Shown here piece by piece: positions 18,611 through 32,512 of a DNA stretch of 64,000 nt (position 1 is its first letter; each line of letters begins with the position of its first letter). The DNA is from Gemmatimonadaceae bacterium (lineage in GTDB: Bacteria; Gemmatimonadota; Gemmatimonadetes; Gemmatimonadales; Gemmatimonadaceae), in assembly GCA_011525845.1 (NCBI GenBank), contig WYBP01000002.1, positions 62,001 through 126,000 on the forward strand, in the 5' to 3' direction. Made by a program: the position numbers and the translations under genes. Under the pieces are notes generated by a model that saw only the letters and a program-made list of their open reading frames with translations, was not told the origin of the DNA and did no database searches.

Positions 18611-20890
18611 ATGGATGCCGTGCTCACGTTCCTGTTCAAGTATTCGTCGCGGGTCTGGGAACGGGGTGAGGTCGTCCTGAGCCCGGTGGCGCCACCCTGG
18701 TTCATCGCGGGGCTCGCGCTCCTTGCGATCGCGGTGGCGGCGATGACCTACCACCGGGTGCAGGGGATCTCGCGGATGCACCGCACGATCCTGCTCGCGC
18801 TGCGGGCGACGGCCCTCCTCCTGCTGGTCGCGTGCCTGCTCCGGCCCCGCCTCGTCGTCGCGAGCGCGGTGCCGCAGCGGAACGTGCTCGCGATCCTGCT
18901 CGACGACTCGCGCTCCATGGCCCTCAACGACGGGGGCGCGGAGTCGCGCGCCGCGCGCGTGGAGCGCGCGTTCGCCGACTCCGCCGCGCTGGTGCGTGCG
19001 CTCTCCGACCGATTCGCGCTCCGCTTCTACCGGTTCGCGGCCGACGTGCGGCCGGCGGCGGAGGCCGCGGGGCTCCGGAGCGCGGGGACGCGGACCGACC
19101 TCGCGCGCGCCCTCGAAGGGGCGCGGCAGGAGCTGGCCGGCACGCCGCTGGCCGGCGTGATCGTCGTGACCGACGGCGCGGACAACGGGGGCCGCGACCT
19201 CGAGCCCGCGGTGCTCGCGCTGCGCGCCCGCAAGGTGCCCGTGCACACGGTGGGCGTCGGGCTCGAGCGCTTCCCGCGCGACGTCGCGATCGAGCGCGTC
19301 TCGCTCCCGGCGCGTCCCCTGGTCGGGGCGAACCTGCTCGCGGACGTCACCCTGCGGCTCCGGGGCGTCGGCGGGGAGCGGATCCGGCTCACGGCGGAGG
19401 CGGACGGCCGCGTCGTCGCGACCGAGGAGGTCACCCTCCCCTCCCGCGAGGAGAGCGTGCGCGTGCGGCTCCGGCTCGCGGACCTGGCGCCGGGCACGCA
19501 TCGCATCACCGTGCGCACCCCCGTGCTGCCGCGGGAGACGGTGGCCGAGAACAACGAGTCGCACGGCATCGTGCAGGTGCGCGGCGGACCCGACCGGGTG
19601 CTCTACCTCGAAGGGGAGCCGCGGGCCGAGCTCGGCTTCATCCGGCGCGCGATCGCGACCGACAGCGCGCTGCAGCTCGTCGCGCTGCTGCGGAGCGCGG
19701 AGCGGAAGTACCTCCGGCTCGGCGTGCGCGACTCGCTCGAGCTAGCGGGGGGCTTCCCCACCACGCGGCAGGAGCTCTACGCGTACCGCGGCGTGATCCT
19801 CGGGAGCATCGAGGCGGCGTTCTTCACGCCGGACCAGCTGCGCATGCTCGCGGACTTCGTGAACCAGCGCGGCGGCGGGCTGCTCGCCCTGGGCGGTCGT
19901 GCGGCGTTCGCCGAAGGGGGCTTCCGTGGCACCCCGCTCGCCGAGGTGATGCCGCTGGCGCTCGACCGCGCGCCGCGCGAGGCGGAGGGGCCCGCGCTCG
20001 AACTCCGCATCCGGCCGACGGTCGCGGGCACGTCGGCGCCCGCGCTGCAGCTGCGGGCGTCGGACACCGCCTCCGCGCGCGTCTGGGACTCGCTCCCGCC
20101 CCTCACGGTGGTGAATGCGCTCGGCTCGCTGCGCCCCGGGGCCACCGCGTACCTCACGGGGCGCGCGGAGGGCGAGACCACCGACCAGCCCGTGCTCGCC
20201 ACCCAGCGGTTCGGCCGCGGCACCGCGACCGTGTTCACGGCGCAGGACAGCTGGCTCTGGAAGATGCACGCGGACATCCCGGTGGAGGATGCGACCCACG
20301 TGACGCTCTGGCGGCAGCTCGTGCGGTCGCTCACCGAGGAGAGCCCCGACCGCGTCGAGCTCGCCGTCACGCCGGACCGCGTGGCACCCGGCGAGCCGGT
20401 GGAGATCCGCGCGCGCGTGGCCGACGAGCAGTACCTCGACGTGAACGATGCGGCGGTGACCGCGACCGTCCGCACGCCATCCGGGCGCGAGGCGGAGGTC
20501 CCGCTCGAGTGGGCGCTCACGGAGAACGGGGTGTACACAGGACGATTCGTCGCGGAGGAGGCGGGAGTGTACGCGGTCGGCGCCGAATCGCGGCGCGGCC
20601 GCGATGTCGCCGCGGCGAGGAGCGTCGCGATGCTGGCCGACGACCAGGGAGCGGACGTCGAGCAGGCGGAGCTGCGCGCCCCCCTCCTGCAGCGGATCGC
20701 GCGGGAGACGGGTGGCCGCTACTACCCGCTCGCGGAGGCGGAGCGGCTCAGCGACGACGTGCTCTACACGGAGAGCGGCGTCACCGTGCGCGAGGCGCTC
20801 GACCTCTGGGACATGCCGGTGGTCTTCCTCGTCCTGGCCACGCTGCTCGGCGTGGAGTGGGCACTCCGCAGGTCGCGGGGGTTGGCGTGA
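18611..20890 (+). CDS. Membrane protein with VWA and GATase-like domains
   Basis: A 759-residue membrane protein that opens an eight-gene operon. Two N-terminal helices (about residues 30-46 and 59-77) are followed by a von Willebrand A-like domain: metal-site start LLDDSRSMAL at 96-105 and VVTDGADNGG at 175-184. A CARDB-like beta domain comes next (to the run VAENNESHGIVQV). A class I glutamine amidotransferase-like fold follows (LYLEGEPRAELGFIRRAI, LADFVNQRGGGLLALGG) without an obvious catalytic Cys-His-Glu set. A last helix near residues 735-752 ends in RRSRG. Probably an envelope scaffold that works with the downstream MoxR ATPase. The stop overlaps the next ATG (TGATG). Confidence 0.82.
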   Translation: MDAVLTFLFKYSSRVWERGEVVLSPVAPPWFIAGLALLAIAVAAMTYHRVQGISRMHRTILLALRATALLLLVACLLRPRLVVASAVPQRNVLAILLDDSRSMALNDGGAESRAARVERAFADSAALVRALSDRFALRFYRFAADVRPAAEAAGLRSAGTRTDLARALEGARQELAGTPLAGVIVVTDGADNGGRDLEPAVLALRARKVPVHTVGVGLERFPRDVAIERVSLPARPLVGANLLADVTLRLRGVGGERIRLTAEADGRVVATEEVTLPSREESVRVRLRLADLAPGTHRITVRTPVLPRETVAENNESHGIVQVRGGPDRVLYLEGEPRAELGFIRRAIATDSALQLVALLRSAERKYLRLGVRDSLELAGGFPTTRQELYAYRGVILGSIEAAFFTPDQLRMLADFVNQRGGGLLALGGRAAFAEGGFRGTPLAEVMPLALDRAPREAEGPALELRIRPTVAGTSAPALQLRASDTASARVWDSLPPLTVVNALGSLRPGATAYLTGRAEGETTDQPVLATQRFGRGTATVFTAQDSWLWKMHADIPVEDATHVTLWRQLVRSLTEESPDRVELAVTPDRVAPGEPVEIRARVADEQYLDVNDAAVTATVRTPSGREAEVPLEWALTENGVYTGRFVAEEAGVYAVGAESRRGRDVAAARSVAMLADDQGADVEQAELRAPLLQRIARETGGRYYPLAEAERLSDDVLYTESGVTVREALDLWDMPVVFLVLATLLGVEWALRRSRGLA

Positions 20891-21831
20891 TGCGCCGCGC
20901 GCTCTCTCTCGCCGCGATCGCGCTGGCCGCGGGTCTCGTCCTCGCCGCGCCGCTCGGCGCGCAGCGCACCCATCTCCTGGTGGTGACCGGGCTCGGCGGG
21001 GAGCCGCGCTTCTCCGAGGCGTTCGCGCGGCAGGGTGCGGCCCTGCACACGCTCGCGCGCACGCAGTGGCGCGTGGCGGACTCCAGCGTCGTCTGGCTCG
21101 CCGAGGATCCGGCGCGCGACCCCCGGCGCATCCGGGGGCGCGCGACGCGCGAGGCGATCGGGGCCGCGTTCCTCTCCCTCTCGCGACGCGTCGCGGCGGG
21201 GGACGTGCTGGTCGTGATCCTGATCGGCCACGGGAGCGGGGAGGGGCCGGGTTCCCGCGTGAACGTGCCTGGCGCGGACCCCACCGCCGCGGACTATGCG
21301 GCCTGGCTCTCGGGCTTCGCGCGGCAGACGGTGGTGTTCGTGAACGCGGCGAGCGCGAGCGGGGACTTCGTGGATGTGCTGCGCGCGCCGAACCGCGTGG
21401 TCCTGACGGCGACGCGCACCGCGTTCGAGCGGAACGAGAGCATCTTCGGCGAGCACTTCGTCCGGGGGCTCTCGGGTGCCGAGGCGGACGCGGACAAGGA
21501 CGGTCGCACCACCGTGCTCGAGGCGTTCGCCTACGCGGTGCGCGAGGTGGCGCGCGTCTACGAGCAGGACCAGCGCATGCTCACCGAGCACGCGGCGCTC
21601 AGCGACTCGACGCTGGCGGCGCGGACGGTCTTCGCCGCGGCGGCCGCGAGCGACGACCCGCGCGTGGTCGCGCTCGTCGCGGAGCGGCGCGTGCTGGAGG
21701 ACTCGGTGGCGGCGCTCCGCGCCCGGAAGGCGAGCATGCCGGCGGCGGCGTACGAGGACGCGCTCGAGCGGTTGCTCGTCGCGATCGCGGAGAAGTCCGA
21801 GGCGATCCGCGCGGCGGGGGTGAAGCCATGA
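20890..21831 (+). CDS. Exported caspase-fold-like protein lacking the catalytic cysteine
   Basis: A 313-residue protein with a signal peptide (cut near PLGAQ). The body looks like a clan CD (caspase/legumain C13-like) domain: a first strand HLLVVTGLGG, the histidine motif VVILIGHGSGEG (H114), and the second-strand motif VVFVNAASASGDF at about 148-160. In active members the second motif is D-A-C-x-S-G; here the cysteine position is S155. A typical post-domain segment DADKDGRTTVLEAFAYAV is present. The C-terminal 60 residues are a predicted coiled coil (VAERRVLEDSVAALRARK). It is probably non-peptidolytic or has altered chemistry. Both ends overlap neighbours (TGATG, ATGA), which ties it to the operon. 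Confidence 0.7.
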   Translation: MRRALSLAAIALAAGLVLAAPLGAQRTHLLVVTGLGGEPRFSEAFARQGAALHTLARTQWRVADSSVVWLAEDPARDPRRIRGRATREAIGAAFLSLSRRVAAGDVLVVILIGHGSGEGPGSRVNVPGADPTAADYAAWLSGFARQTVVFVNAASASGDFVDVLRAPNRVVLTATRTAFERNESIFGEHFVRGLSGAEADADKDGRTTVLEAFAYAVREVARVYEQDQRMLTEHAALSDSTLAARTVFAAAAASDDPRVVALVAERRVLEDSVAALRARKASMPAAAYEDALERLLVAIAEKSEAIRAAGVKP

Positions 21832-24098
21832 GCCGGTGGATCGTGGCGGTCGGGGCGGCACTCGTCGTCGGCGTCGCGGCCGGGGCGGGGCACACGGCAC
21901 AGCCGTCCAGCGCGCGCGCGCGCGTGGACGCGATGCTCGAGGCCGGCCAGCTCGTGGATGCTGAGGCCACGGCGCGCGCCGGTGGCGCGGGGCTGCGCAC
22001 AGCCCTGGGGGACGTCCTCGTGCTCCGCGGGCGGCTCGCGGCCGCGGACTCCGCGTATCGTGCCGCGGTCGCGTCCGGCGGCCCGGAGGAGCGTGGCGCG
22101 CGCGTCGGGCTCGCGGAGCTCATGGCGCGCCGCGGGGACCGCGCCGGCGCCGCCCGGATGGCGGGCGCGCTCATCGCCGAGTCGGCGCGGGGCACCGCGG
22201 GTTGGAGCGCGCGCGACCAGGTCGCACTGGGGCGCGCCTACCTGCTGGTGGCGAGCGGCGACGCGAACGCCGTGCGGAGCGCGCTGCGCGCCTTCGATGC
22301 CGCGACGGCGCAGGAGCCGACGCTGGTCGATGCCGCGCTCCGCGCGTCCGACCTCTTCCTCGAGAAGTTCGTCGCGCCGGAGGCGAAGAAGGGGTACGAA
22401 TCCGTACTCGCGGTGCAGCGCGGGAACGCGCGCGCCACGCTCGGGCTCGCGCGCGTGATGGAGTTCCTGAACGATGGGGACGCGATCGGGAGGGCGCGCG
22501 AGGCGCTCAAGGCGAATCCGTCGCTCGTCGCCGCGGAGCTCTTCATCGCACGGTTGCACCTCGAGGCGGAGCGCGGCGACTCGGCGCAGGCGGCGGCGCG
22601 GCGCGCCCTCGCCGTGGATCCGAGCGCGATGGATGCCTGGGCCACGCTGGGTGCCGTGGCCTGGCTCGCGGGTGACTCCGCGTCGTGGGACCGCGCCCGC
22701 GCGGAGGCGCACCGGCTCTCGACGAGCCCGGCGTCGTTCTACGTGACGCTCGCGGACGCGGCGGCGCGGCAGCGGCGCTACGCGGCGGCCGAGGCGTTCA
22801 GTGCCCAGGCCCTCGCGCTCGACTCGCTCTCGGTGGCCGCGCTCGGTGCGCTCGGCACCAACCGCCTGCGCGCGGGGGAGATCGCGGCCGGCCGTGCGCA
22901 GATCGAGCGCGCCTTCGCGATCGACCCGTTCAACCTCTGGCACAAGAATACGCTCGACCTGCTCGACGTGCTCGACGGGTTCCGGACGGTGGACCAGGGG
23001 AGGTTCCGGTTCGTCGCGCCGGCGAGGGAGGCGGACGTGCTGCTCCCGTACCTCGCGCCGCTGCTCGAGGAGGCGTACGCCGACCTCGCGAGGCGGTACG
23101 ACTATCGCCCCGCGGCGCCGATCCGGTTCGAGATCTATGACCGGCACGCGGACTTCTCCGTGCGCACCGTGGGACTCACGGGACTCGGCGCGCTCGGCGT
23201 GAGCTTCGGGCGGGTGCTCGCGATCGACGCGCCCTCCGCGCGGCCGCCGGGGAGCTTCAACTGGGGGTCCACCTCCTGGCACGAGCTGGCGCACACCTTC
23301 ACGCTCGGGCTCTCGGGGAACCGGGTGCCGCGCTGGTTCTCCGAGGGCGTCTCGGTGTTGGAGGAGCGGCGCGCGCGGCCGGGGTGGGGAGCGCAGCCGA
23401 CGCCGGAGTACCTCGCGGCGCTCAAGGCGAAGTTCATGCGGCCGGTGAGCACGCTCAACGAGGGGTTCGTGCGGCCGCGGCGCCCGGACGAGGTGGTGCT
23501 GAGCTACTACCACGCATCGCTGGTCTGCGAGTGGATCGAGTCCGAGTTCGGCGCCCCGGCGCTCCCGGCGATGCTGCGCGGATGGCGCGACGGCCTCACC
23601 ACGGAGGCGGTGGTGCAGCGCGTGCTGCGGATCGACCTGCCCGCGCTCGATGCGCGCTTCGACACCTGGGTGCAGGCGAGGTTCAGGGACCGGACGGTGT
23701 CGGAGGCGCCCGAGGGCGATGCGGCGCTCGAGCCGCTCCTGCAGGAGGTGGCGGCCCGGGAGCGCGCCGGTGACGACGCGGGTCTGGTCGCGGCGCTCGA
23801 GCGCCTGGTGTGGGTCTGGCCGTACGACGCGGGGGTGCATGTGAAGCTCGCCGAGGCGGCCGCGCGCACCGGGGACTTCGCGCGCGCGTTGCGGGAGCGG
23901 CGGGTGGTGCTGGCGCTGGGCCCCTCGGACCCGCTGGGTGCGCGCGTGGAGCTCGCCCGCGCCATGCTGGGCGCGGGGGACCGCGCCGGAGCGCGGCGCG
24001 AGGTGCTCGCCGTGCTGGAGCAGGCGCCGACCTTCGAGCGGGCGCAGACCCTGCTGCTCGAGCTGCGGCGCAGTGCGCCGCCGGAGGACTCGCGATGA
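21828..24098 (+). CDS. TPR protein with MA-type (gluzincin) peptidase domain
   Basis: A 756-residue exported protein (signal peptide ends near GAGHTAQ). Residues 30-390 are tetratricopeptide-like repeats (for example LDSLSVAALGALGTNRLRAG). The middle is a peptidase MA-like domain: HELAH at 485-489 and the third ligand E506 in RWFSEGVS, the standard gluzincin site. Two or more further TPR units close the protein (CHVKL-type helices from about 640). All catalytic residues are intact, so active proteolysis in the periplasm is likely; the substrate is unknown. Its ATG overlaps the caspase-like gene's stop, and its own stop overlaps the DUF4159 gene's ATG. Confidence 0.83.
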   Translation: MSRWIVAVGAALVVGVAAGAGHTAQPSSARARVDAMLEAGQLVDAEATARAGGAGLRTALGDVLVLRGRLAAADSAYRAAVASGGPEERGARVGLAELMARRGDRAGAARMAGALIAESARGTAGWSARDQVALGRAYLLVASGDANAVRSALRAFDAATAQEPTLVDAALRASDLFLEKFVAPEAKKGYESVLAVQRGNARATLGLARVMEFLNDGDAIGRAREALKANPSLVAAELFIARLHLEAERGDSAQAAARRALAVDPSAMDAWATLGAVAWLAGDSASWDRARAEAHRLSTSPASFYVTLADAAARQRRYAAAEAFSAQALALDSLSVAALGALGTNRLRAGEIAAGRAQIERAFAIDPFNLWHKNTLDLLDVLDGFRTVDQGRFRFVAPAREADVLLPYLAPLLEEAYADLARRYDYRPAAPIRFEIYDRHADFSVRTVGLTGLGALGVSFGRVLAIDAPSARPPGSFNWGSTSWHELAHTFTLGLSGNRVPRWFSEGVSVLEERRARPGWGAQPTPEYLAALKAKFMRPVSTLNEGFVRPRRPDEVVLSYYHASLVCEWIESEFGAPALPAMLRGWRDGLTTEAVVQRVLRIDLPALDARFDTWVQARFRDRTVSEAPEGDAALEPLLQEVAARERAGDDAGLVAALERLVWVWPYDAGVHVKLAEAAARTGDFARALRERRVVLALGPSDPLGARVELARAMLGAGDRAGARREVLAVLEQAPTFERAQTLLLELRRSAPPEDSR

Positions 24099-24886
24099 CG
24101 CGGATCACGATGCTGGCGGTCTCGGTGGCGATGGCTCTGGCGATGGTGCCCGTGCTGCCGTCCACGGCGAGCGCCCAGCGCGGCGGCGGTCGCGAGCGGT
24201 TCGTGGAGCCCGAGGACAACCCGCGCTACGACGGGCGGTTCACGTTCGTGCGCGTGCGCTACGAGATGGGGTTGAACTCGGAGTTCGGCTTCCGCGGGCG
24301 CGGCGGCGGCGGGCTCCCGCCCTGGGCGCACGACTACCCGCGCGGCGAGCGCAACTTCACGCAGATCCTCTCCGAGCTCGCCACCGTGCGCGTGCGCACG
24401 CGGGAGAGCGTGATCCTCTCGCTCAACGACCCGGAGCTCACGAAGTATCCCGTGGCGTACATGTCGGAACCGGGATTCTGGACGCCGAACGACGCGGAGG
24501 TCGCGGGGCTGCGCGCGTACCTGCTCAAGGGCGGGTTCATCATCTTCGACGACTTCCGCGGCCGCGACTGGTTCAACCTCGAGCAGCGGATGAGCCAGGT
24601 GCTCCCCGAACTCCGGTTCGTCCAGATCGACGCCACGCACCCGATCTTCGACTCGTTCTACCGCATCACGAATCCCGAGGTGATGAACGCCTACGACGCG
24701 GTGCCGACGTACTGGGCGATCTTCGAGGAGAACGACCCCAGGAAGCGGATGCTCGCGATCGCCAACCGCGACAACGACATGTCGGAGTACTGGGAGTGGT
24801 CCGGCAACGGCTTCTTCGCCGTGGACATCACCAACGAAGCGTACAAGATCGGCATCAACTACATCATCTACGCCCTCAGTCGCTGA
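24095..24886 (+). CDS. DUF4159 domain protein, exported
   Basis: A 263-residue protein with a signal peptide (MTRITMLAVSVAMALAMVPV, cut after TASAQ). Nearly all of the rest is one DUF4159 domain: FTFVRVRYEMG at the start, ILSLNDPELTKYPVAYMSEPG, LRAYLLKGGFIIFDDFRG and DATHPIFDSFY in the middle. The fold is flavodoxin/GATase-like with no visible catalytic set. DUF4159 genes are regularly found next to moxR and DUF58 genes, as here; function is not established. The moxR gene follows after 21 bases behind a purine-rich ribosome-binding site (GGAGAG). Confidence 0.85.
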   Translation: MTRITMLAVSVAMALAMVPVLPSTASAQRGGGRERFVEPEDNPRYDGRFTFVRVRYEMGLNSEFGFRGRGGGGLPPWAHDYPRGERNFTQILSELATVRVRTRESVILSLNDPELTKYPVAYMSEPGFWTPNDAEVAGLRAYLLKGGFIIFDDFRGRDWFNLEQRMSQVLPELRFVQIDATHPIFDSFYRITNPEVMNAYDAVPTYWAIFEENDPRKRMLAIANRDNDMSEYWEWSGNGFFAVDITNEAYKIGINYIIYALSR

Positions 24887-24907: not shown

Positions 24908-25942
<1,035 letters not shown>

Positions 25943-25947
25943 CGCCG

Positions 25948-26853
25948 ATGACCGCGACGCCGGCCAAGGAGACCTTCCTCGACCCCGCGCTCCTCGCGCG
26001 GATCAGCGACCTGCCGCTCATCGCGCGGATGGTCGTGGACGGCTTCATGCACGGCCTGCACCGCTCCGTGAAGAAGGGGCTCTCGCTCGACTTCGCCGAG
26101 CACCGCCAGTACCAGCCGGGGGACGACCTGCGGCGGATCGACTGGAAGGCGTACGCCCGCACCGACCGCTTCTACATCAAGGAGTACGAGGCGGACACCA
26201 ACGCCGGCGTGCTCTTCGCGCTCGACGTCACCGGGTCGATGGACTACGCGAGCGCCGCGGTGAACAAGTTCACGTACGCGAAGATCCTCGTGGCTGCGCT
26301 CGCCTGGCTCACGCAGCGGCAGGGGGACCGCGTGGGGATCGCCACCTTCGGTGACGACCTCGTGGACATGGTGCCCCCCTCGACGCGGCACCTGCAGCTC
26401 CTGCTGAGCGTGCTCGGCCGCGCGGTGGCGAAGGGGGAGGGCGCGCTCCCGCTCGCGATCGACCGCGTGGCGGACGTCGCGACGCGCCCGGGGATCGTGA
26501 TCCTCGTGAGCGACTTCTATGGTGAACCCGAGGCGATCGGCCGGTCGGTGAACACGCTCCGCGCGCGCGGCCACGACGTGCTCGTCTTCCACCTGCTCGA
26601 CCCGGCCGAGGAGTCCTTCCCGTTCGAGGCGGCCACCGTGTTCGAGGACGGGGAGAGCGGGCTGCGCATGCCGCTGCGGCCGGAGGAGGTGAAGGAGCGC
26701 TACCAGCGGATGTTCCGCGCGCACCGCGCCGACCTCGAGGGGCGCTTCGCCGCCGCCGGCGTCGAGTACGTCGCGCTCCGAACCGACCAGCCGCTCGACC
26801 ACGCCCTCTACGCCTACCTCGACCACCGCCTCTCGCGGAGCCGGGTGCGCTGA
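25948..26853 (+). CDS. DUF58 family protein
   Basis: A 301-residue cytosolic DUF58 protein. The family motif is PGDDLRRIDWKAYARTDRF, followed by a VWA-like core with a degenerate metal site (LFALDVTGSMDYAS) and VILVSDFYGEP. DUF58 proteins are the regular partners of MoxR ATPases and are thought to be their direct substrates or adaptors. It begins 5 bases after moxR and its stop overlaps the ATG of the BatA-like gene (TGATG), so dosage is tightly coupled. Confidence 0.93.
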   Translation: MTATPAKETFLDPALLARISDLPLIARMVVDGFMHGLHRSVKKGLSLDFAEHRQYQPGDDLRRIDWKAYARTDRFYIKEYEADTNAGVLFALDVTGSMDYASAAVNKFTYAKILVAALAWLTQRQGDRVGIATFGDDLVDMVPPSTRHLQLLLSVLGRAVAKGEGALPLAIDRVADVATRPGIVILVSDFYGEPEAIGRSVNTLRARGHDVLVFHLLDPAEESFPFEAATVFEDGESGLRMPLRPEEVKERYQRMFRAHRADLEGRFAAAGVEYVALRTDQPLDHALYAYLDHRLSRSRVR

Positions 26854-28934
26854 TGGGACTCGGCTTCCTCGTCCCCGCCTTCCTCGCCGGGCTCGCCGCG
26901 ATCGCGATCCCGCTGCTGATGCACCTCCGCGACCGGAACGAGGAGACACCCACCCGGTTCCCGTCGCTGATGTTCCTCGTGCGGCTCCCGATCCGCACCT
27001 CGGACCGTCGCAAGGTCACGGACTGGCCGCTCCTGCTCCTGCGGGCGCTGGCGGTGGCGATCCTCGTGCTGGCCTTCTCGCGCCCCTTCTTCGGCCGCGA
27101 CGCGGCGGCGGCGGGCGAGGGGCGCGTGCGCACGATGGTCGTCATGCTCGACCGTTCGATGAGCATGGGGTACGCCGGCACCTGGGCGGCGGCGCGGGAC
27201 TCCGTGCGCGCGCTCCTCGACGGGCTCGCCACGGACGACCAGGTGGCGCTCGTGCTCTTCGACGAGGAGGCGACGCTCGCGCAGAACTGGACGGCCGACC
27301 GTGCCGCCGTGCGGGCCATCGTGGACGCGACCGAGCCGGCCGCGCGCGCGACGGGGTTCGGCGCGGCACTGCGCGTGGCCCGCAGCGCGCTCGTCGCCGC
27401 CCCGCCGGGGGCACCCGAGATCGTGCTCGTCACCGACCTCCAGCGGAGCGGGCTCACCGGCGTCGCGGGACTCGCCATGCCGGCGGGCCTGCCGATCCGC
27501 GTGGTCTCCGTCGCACCGCCGGCGCGCGCCAACACCGCGGTCTCCTCGGTGGATGCCCGTCGTGTCGCGGACGGCTCGCGCGTGCAGCTGCACGTGCAGG
27601 CCCGAGTCACGACCCGCGAACTCCCGGCGCCGCGGTCGGTGCGCCTCGCGCTGGCGCTCGCGGGGCGCGAGGTGGGGACGCGCACCGTCACGCTCCCGGC
27701 GGACGGAGAGCTGAACGTCGTGTTCGACCCCGTCACCGCACCCGCGGGCGCCATCAGCGGCCGCGTCACCGTGGACTCCGACGCGCTGCCGGGGGACGAC
27801 CGCCTCGAGTTCGCGCTCCCCGCGGACGACGCGCTCACGGTCGTCCTCGTGGTCCCCGACGACCTCAACCGCGACGAGACGCTCTACTTCGAGCGCGCGC
27901 TCGCCATCGGCCGGGCGCCGGCGGTGCGTATCGAGCGCCGCCGCACCGGTGCCGTGGATGCCGCGACGCTGGCGCGCGCGGGCATCGTCTTCCATTGGGA
28001 TGTCGCCCCGGCCAGCGGCGCCGCGGGTGCTGGGCTCGACACCTGGGTGCAGGGCGGCGGTGGACTGGTCGTCCTCGCCGGCCCGCGCCTGGGCGCACGC
28101 CGCGTCTCGGCGCTGGCCGCGACGGCGGGCGTCAATGGTCAGGCCGACCGCAGCGCGGCGGGCGGCGCCACGGTGGGAGAGGTGCGGATGGAGCATCCCC
28201 TCTTCACGCCCTTCCGCGCGGCCCCGGCCGCGCTCAGCGCGCCGCGCTTCCTCCGCTATCCACGCCTCGAACCGCTCGTGGGCTCGGAGGTGCTCGCCCG
28301 CTTCGACGACGGGTCGCCCGCGATCCTCGAGCGGACCGCCGGCGAGGGGCGCGTGCTCGTGCTCGCCCCGGGCCTCGACGTGCGCGAGGGCGACTTCCCG
28401 CTCCAACCGGCGTTCCTTCCGTTCCTGCGGCGCGTCGCGCTCTACGCGGCGGGCCACGAGGCCGCGCCGCTCTGGCGCAGCACCGGGGAGAGCTGGATGC
28501 CGCGCGGGGTCCGCCGAGCCCCGGTGATCCAGGCTCCGGACGGCACACTGCTCCGCCCCGAAGCCACGGAGTTCGCCGTCGCGCTGACCCTTGAACAGGT
28601 CGGGGTGTATGCTGCGTATGAGGGACGGGTGGACGGCTCGCCGCGGGACCGGATCGCCGTGAACGTCGGGGCCGCGGAGTCCGACCTGACCCCGGCCGAT
28701 CCGTCGGAACTGCTGCTCGGCGTCGCCGAGACCGCCGACTCCACGCTCCGCGGCCTCGCGCCCCCGACGTCCGTCGAGATCGAATCGCGCCAGCTGGCGT
28801 GGCGCATCCTGCTGCTGGTCGGCCTGCTGCTCCTGCTCGCCGAGTCCGTGATCGCATCAAGAGGCTGGCGCGGGCGCGCCCGGCGTGCCACCGTCGTAGG
28901 ACCAGCCGCCACTCCGAAGGAGAGCCAGGGATGA
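26853..28934 (+). CDS. BatA-like membrane VWA protein
   Basis: A 693-residue membrane protein. The N-terminus matches the BatA N-terminal region: two helices around FLVPAFLAGLAAIAIPLLMH and VTDWPLLLLRALAVAILVLAF joined by a cytosolic turn with RDRN. The VWA domain follows with its metal-site motif VVMLDRSMSMG (near residue 93) and LVTDLQRSG. A beta-rich periplasmic part and a GATase-like stretch run to a last helix (AWRILLLVGLLLLLAE) and a basic tail. It probably pairs with DUF58 and the first operon VWA protein. Its stop overlaps the next ATG (ATGA). Confidence 0.88.
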   Translation: MGLGFLVPAFLAGLAAIAIPLLMHLRDRNEETPTRFPSLMFLVRLPIRTSDRRKVTDWPLLLLRALAVAILVLAFSRPFFGRDAAAAGEGRVRTMVVMLDRSMSMGYAGTWAAARDSVRALLDGLATDDQVALVLFDEEATLAQNWTADRAAVRAIVDATEPAARATGFGAALRVARSALVAAPPGAPEIVLVTDLQRSGLTGVAGLAMPAGLPIRVVSVAPPARANTAVSSVDARRVADGSRVQLHVQARVTTRELPAPRSVRLALALAGREVGTRTVTLPADGELNVVFDPVTAPAGAISGRVTVDSDALPGDDRLEFALPADDALTVVLVVPDDLNRDETLYFERALAIGRAPAVRIERRRTGAVDAATLARAGIVFHWDVAPASGAAGAGLDTWVQGGGGLVVLAGPRLGARRVSALAATAGVNGQADRSAAGGATVGEVRMEHPLFTPFRAAPAALSAPRFLRYPRLEPLVGSEVLARFDDGSPAILERTAGEGRVLVLAPGLDVREGDFPLQPAFLPFLRRVALYAAGHEAAPLWRSTGESWMPRGVRRAPVIQAPDGTLLRPEATEFAVALTLEQVGVYAAYEGRVDGSPRDRIAVNVGAAESDLTPADPSELLLGVAETADSTLRGLAPPTSVEIESRQLAWRILLLVGLLLLLAESVIASRGWRGRARRATVVGPAATPKESQG

Positions 28935-31900
28935 CCGCCACCGAGCATCTCCACGACCTGCTGCGCACGCTGCGTGTGCAGCGCCGGAACCGCCTCCTGC
29001 TCGAGGCGGCGGCCTCGGTCGTCATCGCCGCGGTGGCGGCGATCCTCGTCGGCCAGCTCGTGACGGCGCTCTTCGGACGCACGGGGGATGGCGTGCTCGT
29101 CGCGCGCCTCGTCGGGTACGGCCTGGTCGTGGCGGCGGCGGTGCGATTCCTGGTGCTCCCACTCCTCCGGCGCGCGAGCGACGCGGAGTTCGCGCTCTAC
29201 GTGGAGGAGCACGCGCCGTCCCTTCGGCAGGGACTCATCTCCGCCGTGCACGAGCTCGGCGCTCCCCCCGCGCAGCAGTCGTCGCCCGCGCTCACCGCGC
29301 GCGTGGTGGCGCACGCGGTGCGCGACCTCCGCCCGCTGGCCACCGAACGCCGGATCGAGCGGCCGCGCGAGCGGCGCGCCCAGCGCCTGCTGGGCGGTGC
29401 CGTCGCCGCGGCCGTGCTCCTGCTCGCCTTCGGACCCGCCGGTGTGCGCGACATGGCGCGCGTGCTCTTCGCGCCCTGGTCGGTGGCGATCGCGGCCACG
29501 CCGCCGGCGCCGGCCGTCGAGGTCGAGCCGGGCGATGCCGCGGTGCCGCGCGGCGGCGCGATCGACGTGCGCGCCACGCTCGCGCATTTCACGGCCGACG
29601 GCGCCGAGGTCGTCTTCCGCGCCGACAGCGCGGCGGAGTGGGTGCGGCTCCCGATGGGGCGCGAGACGGCGGACGGCGCCTTCGCCGGCCGCCTCTTCGA
29701 CTTGAGCCAGCCCACCGAGTACTACGTGGAGGCAGCGGGCGTGCGGTCCCGCACGTATCGACTCCGCATCACCGACCTGCCCGCCGTCACGCAGCTCGCC
29801 GTGGAGCTGCGCTTCCCCGCGTACACCGGGCTGCCGATGGACCGCACGGAGGATGGCGGGGACATCGCGGCGGTCGCGGGGACGATGGTCACCATCGAGC
29901 CCAAGGTGACGCGCCCGGTGCGGAGCGGGACGCTCGTGTTCGATGATGGCCGCACGGTCGCGCTCGAGGCGGACTCCACGGGCCAGCTCCGCGGCCGCTT
30001 CCGCCTCGCGACCCCGGGCTTCTACCGCGTGGACCTCGTCGCCGCCGACGGCCGCAGCGTCGCGGGAGGGGTGCAGTACGCGGTGGAGGTGCTGCAGGAC
30101 CGCGCGCCCCAGGTCCGCATCAAGGAGCCCGGGCGCGACACCAAGGTCACGGCGCTCGAGGAGGTCACGATCGAGGCGCTCGCGAACGACGACTTCGGCG
30201 TGCGCTCCCTCGAGCTCCGCTACCGGGTGAACGGCGGTGAGGAGCAGCGGATCACCCTCGCGACGCCCAGCGGGCAGTCGGAGGAGACGCAGGCCGCGCA
30301 CACCCTCCTCCTCGAGGAGATGGGCCTCAAGCCAGGCGACCTCGTGGCCTACAACGCGGCCGCCACGGATGCCGCGGGCCAGGAAGCGCTGAGCGACGTC
30401 TACTTCCTGCAGGTGCGCCCCTGGTCGCGCGACTATCGCCAGGCGGAGTCGGGAGGCGGCGGCGGAGGTGGCGGGGCAGGCGGCGGCGAGTCGCCCGGCG
30501 ACCTCGTGCAGCGGCAGCGCGACGTGGTGGCGGGCACCTACAACTGGCTCCGCGACAGCGCGAAGACGGCCGAGCGCCAGCGGAACGAGGACGTCACCAC
30601 GCTCGCCATCGCCCAGGGGAGCCTCCGCGAGGAGGTCGCGACGCTGGCGCAGCGGATGCTCGAGCGCGGCATCACGCAGGGGGACACGACCTTCGCGCAG
30701 ATCCGCGAGGCGCTCGTGAGCGCCACCAAGGAGATGAAGGTCGCCGAGGAGAAGCTCGGCACCCGCGACGGCCGCGCGGCCCTCCCCTCCGAGGAGCGGG
30801 CGCTCCGCGACCTGCAGCGCGCCGACGCGCTCTACCGCGAGGTGCAGATCCAGCAGGGGAACCAGCAGGGGGGCGGGGGAGGCGGCGGCGGCGGACAGCG
30901 CGCCGAGGACCTCGCCGACCTGTTCGAGCTCGAGAACGACCGCATGCGCAACCAGTACGAGGCCGTGCAGCAGCAGGCGGCGGCTGGGGGCGCGCAGGAG
31001 GTGAACGAGACGCTCGAGCGGCTGCGCCAGTTGGCAGCGCGACAGCAGCAGGAGAACGAGCGGTTGCAGCGGCAGGCCGAGGCGATGCGCGACCGCATGG
31101 GGCGCGAGGCCGCCGGCGGAGGGGGTGGCGCGCAGCGCGAACTCGCGCGCCAGGCGGAGGAGGAGGCGCGCCGGCTCGAGCGGCTCGCGCGCGAGCAGCA
31201 GTCGCAGGACCTCGCCGAGGCCGCGCGGCAGATGCAGCGCGCCGCGGACGCCATGCGGCAGGCGGCGGGCGGGTCGGAGGCGCAGGGGAGTGCCGCGCTC
31301 GAGGAGCTGGAGCGCGCGACGCGCCGCCTGGAGGATTCGCGCAACCGCGACCTGAGTGATGGCATCAAGCAGCTCGCCGACCAGGCGAAGGCGCTCGAGG
31401 CGCGGCAGCGCGCGATCGCCGAGGACGTGAAGCGGATGCTCGGGTCGAGCGGCGCGCAGCGCGCCGAACAGCAGCGGCAGCTCACCGAGCGGAAGGACGG
31501 CCTGAACGCCGAGGTCGGCCGGCTGGAGGCGGAGGCGGAGCGCCTCTCGCGCGAGGGGCGGCGCGACCAGCCGACGGCGGCGAGCCGGCTGCGCGAGGCG
31601 TCGGACGCGATCCGCGAGAACCGGGTGCAGGACAAGATCCAGTTCTCCAAGAGCGTCATCCGCGGCGGTTCACCGGAGTACGCCACCGCGTTCGAGGAGC
31701 AGATCGGGGACAACATCGCCGAGGCGTCGGAGAAGCTGCGCGAGGCCGTCGGCGCGCTGGCGGGCGAGTCGGTGGCACGCCAGCAGGAGCGGGCGCTGGA
31801 GCAGGCGCGCGCGCTGGTGCGCGGTGTCGAGAGCCTGCGCGACCGCGCGCAGCAGCAGGCGCAGCAGGGCGAGCAGGGGCAGCAGGGCCAGCAGGGGCAG

Positions 31901-32512
31901 CAGGGGCAGCAGGCGCAGCAGGGCCAGCAGGGGCAGCAGGGGCAACAGGGGCAGCAGGGCCAGCAAGGGCAGCAAGGGCAGCAAGGGCAGCAAGGGCAGC
32001 AAGGGCAGCAAGGGCAGCAAGGGCAGCAAGGGCAGCAAGGCCAGGGCGGCGGGCAGCCCGGCCAGCGCGGCGACGGGAATCCGCAGAATGGCGGGATGGC
32101 CGACGGCCGCCCCGGCGCCAACCGCACGCCCACCCTCTCGGGCGCACAGCAGCGCCAGCTCTCCCGCGAGTTCGGGCTTCGCCGCGAGGACGCCGAGTCG
32201 CTCCGCGAGCTCGCGCGGGCGCAGGGACTCGACGTGAGCGCCCTCAACCGCGCGATCGACGACCTGCGGCGCCTCGAGGCCGGCCGCACGCTCAACGACT
32301 ACCACGCCACGGAGGCGCTCCAGACCGCGTTGCTCGAACGCCTCAAGGCCTTCGAGTTCGCGCTCCACCGCGAGCTCACCCAGAACGCGGGCCCGAAGTC
32401 CGCCCTCGGGGCGCGGTCGCCGGTGCCGAGCGAGTACCGCGCGCAGGTCGAGGAGTACTACCGCTCGTTGGCGCGCCCGCAGCCGCCGACACCGCCCGAC
32501 CCGCGTCCGTGA
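28931..32512 (+). CDS. DUF4175-like membrane protein with coiled coil and collagen-like tract
   Basis: A 1193-residue protein, the last gene of the operon. The N-terminal third has three hydrophobic helices (about residues 23-45, 58-77 and 157-175) and beta domains, as in DUF4175 proteins. A glycine run near residue 508 and another near 647 act as linkers. Residues about 540-970 are almost entirely helical, charged and Gln-rich (a long coiled coil, for example RQQQENERLQRQAEAMRDRM). Residues about 977-1038 are a Gly-Gln-Gln collagen-like repeat. The last 150 residues form a small alpha domain ending in a Pro-rich tail. Probably a large periplasmic stalk or scaffold. The APC permease gene follows after 10 bases. 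Confidence 0.82.
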   Translation: MTATEHLHDLLRTLRVQRRNRLLLEAAASVVIAAVAAILVGQLVTALFGRTGDGVLVARLVGYGLVVAAAVRFLVLPLLRRASDAEFALYVEEHAPSLRQGLISAVHELGAPPAQQSSPALTARVVAHAVRDLRPLATERRIERPRERRAQRLLGGAVAAAVLLLAFGPAGVRDMARVLFAPWSVAIAATPPAPAVEVEPGDAAVPRGGAIDVRATLAHFTADGAEVVFRADSAAEWVRLPMGRETADGAFAGRLFDLSQPTEYYVEAAGVRSRTYRLRITDLPAVTQLAVELRFPAYTGLPMDRTEDGGDIAAVAGTMVTIEPKVTRPVRSGTLVFDDGRTVALEADSTGQLRGRFRLATPGFYRVDLVAADGRSVAGGVQYAVEVLQDRAPQVRIKEPGRDTKVTALEEVTIEALANDDFGVRSLELRYRVNGGEEQRITLATPSGQSEETQAAHTLLLEEMGLKPGDLVAYNAAATDAAGQEALSDVYFLQVRPWSRDYRQAESGGGGGGGGAGGGESPGDLVQRQRDVVAGTYNWLRDSAKTAERQRNEDVTTLAIAQGSLREEVATLAQRMLERGITQGDTTFAQIREALVSATKEMKVAEEKLGTRDGRAALPSEERALRDLQRADALYREVQIQQGNQQGGGGGGGGGQRAEDLADLFELENDRMRNQYEAVQQQAAAGGAQEVNETLERLRQLAARQQQENERLQRQAEAMRDRMGREAAGGGGGAQRELARQAEEEARRLERLAREQQSQDLAEAARQMQRAADAMRQAAGGSEAQGSAALEELERATRRLEDSRNRDLSDGIKQLADQAKALEARQRAIAEDVKRMLGSSGAQRAEQQRQLTERKDGLNAEVGRLEAEAERLSREGRRDQPTAASRLREASDAIRENRVQDKIQFSKSVIRGGSPEYATAFEEQIGDNIAEASEKLREAVGALAGESVARQQERALEQARALVRGVESLRDRAQQQAQQGEQGQQGQQGQQGQQAQQGQQGQQGQQGQQGQQGQQGQQGQQGQQGQQGQQGQQGQQGQGGGQPGQRGDGNPQNGGMADGRPGANRTPTLSGAQQRQLSREFGLRREDAESLRELARAQGLDVSALNRAIDDLRRLEAGRTLNDYHATEALQTALLERLKAFEFALHRELTQNAGPKSALGARSPVPSEYRAQVEEYYRSLARPQPPTPPDPRP
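31863..32046 (+). repeat. In-frame 9-bp tandem repeat (Gly-Gln-Gln) in the DUF4175-like gene
   Basis: A 9-base unit encoding Gly-Gln-Gln is repeated about 18-20 times, with scattered variants (GEQ, AQQ). The last part, 31967-32038, is eight perfect copies of GGGCAGCAA, while earlier units use CAG or CCAG variants, so the 3' end looks recently expanded. Because the unit is a multiple of three, copy-number change alters the length of the protein but not the frame. Confidence 0.95.

Follow-up and report, generated by a model that had tools for sequence, protein, structure and literature searches.

Loss of the catalytic cysteine is already a known event in clan CD proteins, with the bacterial pseudo-orthocaspases and metacaspase 4 of Trypanosoma brucei as described cases. 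In the excerpted text of Klemencic et al. (2019, PMC6426788), pseudo-orthocaspases are C14 p20 proteins in which the dyad most often reads Tyr-Ser, and they are given as absent from phototrophic Gemmatimonadetes. T. brucei metacaspase 4, as described in the available part of PMC6657590, is a eukaryotic C14B metacaspase with Ser in place of Cys, inactive yet functional and linked to the membrane. Inactive caspase-fold domains have also been tied to MoxR-vWA pairs, which are known chaperone-like pairs (e.g., in the available part of PMC9976466). The excerpted text of Kaur et al. (2020, PMC7159879) on MoxR-vWA ternary systems judges about 70% of the caspase domains in the effector position to be inactive, and proposes that such domains bind peptides or act in a dominant-negative way. 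Bat (MoxR-DUF58-BatA) operons, in the portion of PMC3557215 consulted, encode MoxR, BatA-type vWA and TPR proteins at the membrane, for which a complex has been proposed.

The gene at 20890-21831 of a 64,000-nucleotide stretch of DNA from a Gemmatimonadaceae soil bacterium (hereafter the window) can be set beside each of these systems. Its family shares with legumain (C13, PF01650) the predicted fold, the His motif and the order of His followed by C/S-x-S-G, but lacks the catalytic Cys (0 of 162 orthologues), and the window protein matches no Pfam family. As far as the excerpts go, it resembles the pseudo-orthocaspases in being a bacterial clan CD family with family-level loss in the dyad and often Ser at the Cys position; however, those belong to C14 p20, whereas the window family keeps its His and is related to C13. 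The systems of Kaur et al. likewise join inactive caspase-fold domains to MoxR-vWA pairs, but, in the text seen, are variable, conflict-type and carry the domain fused to vWA, whereas the window family sits in a conserved operon as a separate, predicted exported protein. Compared with the Bat operons as excerpted, the window operon adds clan CD, DUF4159 and vWA-GATase proteins.

The gene encodes a protein of 313 aa and occurs in one copy in its genome. It overlaps the upstream gene at TGATG (20888-20892) and the downstream gene at ATGA (21828-21831), an arrangement typical of translational coupling within an operon. The N-terminus, MRRALSLAAIALAAGLVLAAPLGAQ, looks like a Sec-type signal by eye, in line with the signal peptide proposed originally. 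The GHGSG motif with H114 and the AASASG motif with S155 were found in the open reading frame exactly as first described. A search with the window protein alone gave no match in Pfam at E 1, nothing meaningful in NCBIfam and no match among PDB sequences, and PADLOC returned a weak 'caspase' match (E 0.0033). Searching the whole genome for the C13 and C14 Pfam families found neither; PF00656, the C14 p20 caspase domain expected of a pseudo-orthocaspase, had no match even at E 1. The features of the locus are collected in Table 1.

Table 1. Features of the operon and of the C13/legumain-like gene, numbered by position in the window
Feature	Position	Strand	Basis or remark
Membrane vWA protein with GATase1-like domain, 759 aa, directly upstream	18611-20890	+	Matches under Pfam cut-offs
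C13/legumain-like pseudopeptidase, 313 aa, exported (predicted)	20890-21831	+	ORF, ATG start; fold match
Sec-type signal peptide, residues 1-24 (predicted)	20890-20961	+	By eye; pLDDT <50 over residues 1-23
GHGSG, residues 113-117	21226-21240	+	H114 is the clan CD catalytic His; His in 161/162 rows
AASASG, residues 153-158	21346-21363	+	S155 at Cys position; S157-G158 nearly invariant
EF-hand-like 12-residue loop DADKDGRTTVLE, residues 200-211	21487-21522	+	D200 and E211 in 161/161 rows with residues
C-terminal helical pair, residues 257-310 (predicted)	21658-21819	+	AlphaFold2 model: H257-278, H285-310
Exported TPR protein with gluzincin domain (Peptidase_MA_2), HELAH...E, directly downstream	21828-24098	+	E 5.2e-9, over cut-off
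Exported DUF4159 protein	24095-24886	+	E 3.8e-44
MoxR AAA+ ATPase	24908-25942	+	Walker A Lys and Walker B DE in 64/64
DUF58/vWA protein	25948-26853	+	Pfam match; motif check in relatives
BatA-type membrane vWA protein	26853-28934	+	Pfam match; motif check in relatives
DUF4175 protein, likely eighth operon gene	28931-32512	+	Read in window only

The AlphaFold2 model of the window protein, built from 10 sequences, reached a pLDDT of 80.9 and a pTM of 0.72. A Foldseek search using this model revealed similarity with the paracaspase MALT1, metacaspases and legumain at E values of about 1e-6. The top VIA-align match was legumain (4nol_A; Z 21.3, 203 residues, rmsd 2.6 Å), followed within less than one Z unit by Arabidopsis metacaspase 4 (6w8r_A, Z 20.7). 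On the strength of these matches, the window protein is predicted to have the clan CD (caspase/legumain alpha-beta) fold, with legumain or metacaspase as its nearest relative, and the caspase-like fold of the original prediction is borne out by the model. At the sequence level, five family members passed the PF01650 cut-off, while in another scan 3 of 10 members matched PF01650 (best E 0.0027) and the window protein did not. A 44-row profile matched metacaspases over the N-terminal half only (best E 2.8e-4), with legumain rows at E of about 0.5. The catalytic His expected of C13 in (D/G)HG after strand 3 is present as H114, but the Cys of E-A-C-x-S-G is a Ser in the window protein.

S155 had been proposed to occupy the position of the catalytic Cys, and two kinds of alignment agree with this. 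A phmmer search aligned T-A-S-A-S-G of the orthologue G099, which is also over the PF01650 cut-off, to E-A-C-E-S-G of human legumain, at an E value (0.61) that is weak alone. Residues 24-158 were also folded alone with 37 relatives (pLDDT 94.5, pTM 0.88). This fragment ends near S155, so the end of a structural alignment shows which residue S155 matches; the Cys position was read three residues back from that end, which presumes that the last four residues are ungapped. In six of the seven listed structure rows naming a mutated Cys, S155 fell on the catalytic Cys named in the title (4f6p, C276; 4afr, C213; 1sc4 and 1sc3, C285; 6kmv and 6kn1, C254). The legumain rows 7fqi_B and 7fqk_A give residue 189 at S155, which we take to be the catalytic Cys of legumain. 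The caspase-7 rows 1i51_A and 4lsz_C give residue 186, the Cys named for caspase-7 in PMC4357240, and in 3p45_A the last aligned position is S155 itself, paired with residue 163. The misfits were 6w8r_A (C139A), where the alignment ends at 228, and 4nol_A, where it ends at 194, off by two. In most solved relatives the residue that S155 matches is thus the catalytic Cys. By this match S155 would lie near H114, so neither of the two outcomes named against the original prediction, a fold that is not caspase-like or an S155 away from H114, is indicated by the models.

A family profile searched against 395 genomes of the phylum Gemmatimonadota found the gene in 197 of them, so the motif observation is more than chance. 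We read 162 non-identical orthologue rows, as far as discernible each from a different genome; they are mostly the better-scoring of the listed matches with some weaker ones, and leave out some tens of the 197 genomes. Residue 155 is Ser in 133 rows, Thr in 26, Pro in 2 and Asp in 1, and is never Cys; an earlier survey of 86 rows had given S 79, T 6 and D 1. The survey of orthologues, suggested originally as a check, shows that the Ser substitution is not a quirk of a single gene: judged from these sequences, the loss of Cys is fixed throughout the family among the 162 Gemmatimonadota orthologues read. H114 is found in 161 of 162 rows, G158 in 160 and S157 in all 162; the unvarying serine of AASASG is S157 rather than S155, and S157 is encoded by both codon types (AGY in 122 and TCN in 23 of 145). 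By entropy, S155 ranks 62nd among 307 columns. On a quick tree built without column 155, its state changes at least seven times, the Thr155 rows do not form one clade and Pro155 arose twice. One orthologue (L162, genome G274) has Gln114 and Pro155, so that both dyad positions are changed, with nearly all other conserved columns intact; another (L213) has Pro155 with the His kept.

Other explanations of the motif were considered and rejected: sequencing or annotation error, because 162 rows have the same state; a decayed pseudogene, because of the open frames, the conserved columns and the kept operon; and a chance motif, because of the structural fold matches. A search of plasmids with the window protein matched only Gemmatirosa.

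The same profile also detected more distant clan CD proteins in the same genomes. Six of seven keep the Cys, in the motifs DACFSG (three times), DACYSG, DHCNSG and EQCYSG, and the seventh (in G005) has no Cys motif. Since six of these seven distant relatives keep it, the loss of Cys belongs to the window-gene family; it reflects neither the phylum nor the alignment. With the catalytic residue lost family-wide and the fold apparently kept, the family has the marks of a pseudoenzyme. The distant relative at L135/L229 (G005, of the same genus) is a protein of 364 aa with GAG for GHG and DAADAAG for the Cys motif; its genome lacks the vWA partner, and the protein is a second, more degenerate clan CD protein.

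Residues 200-211, within DADKDGRTTVLEAF (residues 200-213), fit the pattern D-x-D-x-D-G-x-x-x-x-x-E, whose positions 1 and 12 are constant in all rows with residues there. D202 is Asp in 150 rows and Asn in 11, and D204 is Asp in 151 and Asn in 10. Pfam EF-hand models matched the loop weakly (best E 0.057). The original prediction likened this segment to exported clan CD proteins, and Cys-bearing relatives do carry a similar segment (e.g., DANSNGRISAREAF in L123), so the segment is ancient within clan CD. The cleft region (GHG, S157-G158, R169, T175, E180) is conserved as much as this loop, and Y288 and several C-terminal positions are among the most conserved columns.

For the neighbourhood survey, 80 loci were fetched with their flanks. 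In 78 of them the next gene upstream is vWA-GATase; the remaining two stop there at a contig end. The TPR-gluzincin gene was found in 74 loci. Of the other six, four run out within 0.8 kb, and in L118 and L119 no TPR-gluzincin was found within about 6 kb downstream. The order vWA-GATase, pseudopeptidase, TPR-gluzincin, DUF4159, MoxR, DUF58 and BatA is complete in 47 of 80 loci; in most of the others the contig or the fetched stretch stops short, or DUF4159 is unmatched or lies upstream. Of 74 gluzincin rows, 5 are gapped at the motif and all 69 others keep HExxH and the distal Glu; the vWA proteins keep the MIDAS Asp and Ser. The MoxR ATPase adjoins vWA proteins, as expected of a MoxR-vWA operon. 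The vWA partner was missing (0/15 at E 1e-5) from the 15 relatives that lack the gene, so the operon seems, from these genomes, to come and go as a unit, while its clan CD protein has lost the nucleophile.

Some loci depart from this arrangement. A TPR-gluzincin match lies about 5.9 kb downstream and does not adjoin in L101 and L121, so these operons may carry an insertion. In several loci, among them L087, L090, L100, L105 and L118, the region upstream of the vWA-GATase gene holds another DUF4159-like match, a weaker one at 31-35% identity. The Planctomyces sp. SH-PL62 plasmid pPL62-3 (L235) carries MoxR, DUF58, BatA and a distant vWA protein, and the stretch read holds no clan CD, gluzincin or DUF4159 genes. 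Because it has the core without those three, this one case suggests that they were added to an older MoxR-DUF58-BatA-vWA core. In the window, neither the vWA-GATase protein (LGGRAAF) nor the DUF4159 protein (GGFIIFDDF) shows, by eye, an obvious Cys where a glutamine amidotransferase would have its nucleophile, so disarmed enzyme folds may occur more than once in the operon. Within the DUF4175 gene, a 9-bp unit, GCAGCAGGG, is repeated 20.7 times at 31852-32037 and encodes a (GQQ)n tract.

Since the Cys is missing from the entire family and yet the gene stays in one conserved cluster, the C13-like protein probably serves a MoxR-vWA machine as a periplasmic subunit that does no catalysis and perhaps binds peptides. 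The pseudoprotease reading of the original prediction is supported by the absence of Cys in 162 rows, by Pro and Asp at position 155 and by L162, which lacks both dyad residues. Some observations count against it: keeping H114 in 161 of 162 rows is unusual for a site without chemistry, and Ser or Thr, both possible nucleophiles, stand at position 155 in 159 of 162. The only row that has lost the His also lacks Ser/Thr155, a hint that the two residues act as a pair. The same facts favour a working Ser/Thr-His hydrolase or transpeptidase of legumain fold, with S155 (or Thr) as nucleophile and H114 as base. However, Pro155 occurs twice and Asp155 once in otherwise intact proteins, 61 other columns are more conserved than S155, the state of which changes at least seven times, and in T. 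brucei metacaspase 4 the change from Cys to Ser goes with an inactive protein (PMC6657590, in the part available). The serine variant named originally as an alternative is therefore weakened by Thr, Pro, Asp and the double-loss orthologue, and we regard it as unlikely. If it were true, an exported clan CD serine enzyme would be tied to a MoxR-vWA machine across Gemmatimonadota, and a whole lineage would have swapped Cys for Ser or Thr with the His kept.

A shift of the nucleophile by two residues, to S157, would account for a Ser that is invariant in spite of its two codon types, but Ser-Gly already belongs to the C-x-S-G of Cys-bearing relatives (EACESG, EQCYSG, DACFSG), all of which share the Ser matching S157. 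Its conservation needs no new chemistry, and this shift is highly improbable. The protein might also be a structural scaffold or a calcium-dependent switch with a vestigial cleft, whose EF-hand-like loop and C-terminal helices hold the vWA and TPR partners. D200 and E211 (161/161), the conserved Y288 and C-terminal columns and the conserved operon would agree with this; however, the cleft is conserved equally with the loop, which suggests that it is still used, and a purely structural role is only a slender possibility.

Under the preferred reading of a non-catalytic subunit, the exported, catalytically dead clan CD protein would act in the periplasm. Its caspase-type cleft (His, S-G and the EF-hand-like loop) would have a frame steadied by calcium and bind a peptide or the tail of a protein, which would be presented to, or sensed for, the membrane vWA proteins, themselves coupled to cytosolic MoxR-DUF58. 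Ser, Thr, Asp and Pro are common in the first turn of a helix, where clan CD places the catalytic Cys position, and residue 155 would be such a helix-cap position and not a nucleophile. For any cutting, the adjoining TPR-gluzincin would be the likely blade. Gene order is consistent with the original proposal that the pseudopeptidase may bind substrates or regulate this neighbouring gluzincin. The weak EF-hand matches, the loci L118 and L119 without a TPR-gluzincin and the misfits of 6w8r_A and 4nol_A speak against the subunit model.

A search of a limited literature collection for pseudo-C13 proteins or MoxR in Gemmatimonadota found nothing on the window family, and no paper on DUF4159 was found there. 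What is new here is a C13-like family in which the His is kept, the loss of Cys is fixed across the Gemmatimonadota orthologues read, and the gene lies in a conserved MoxR-vWA operon. Surveys confined to C14 caspases miss families such as these C13-like pseudopeptidases. What Bat-like MoxR-vWA machines do is left open in the consulted part of PMC3557215, and the operon offers well-defined components with which to address it. A legumain-like fold that lacks its nucleophile throughout the phylum and is locked into a seven-gene operon would point to a non-cutting job in the cell envelope.
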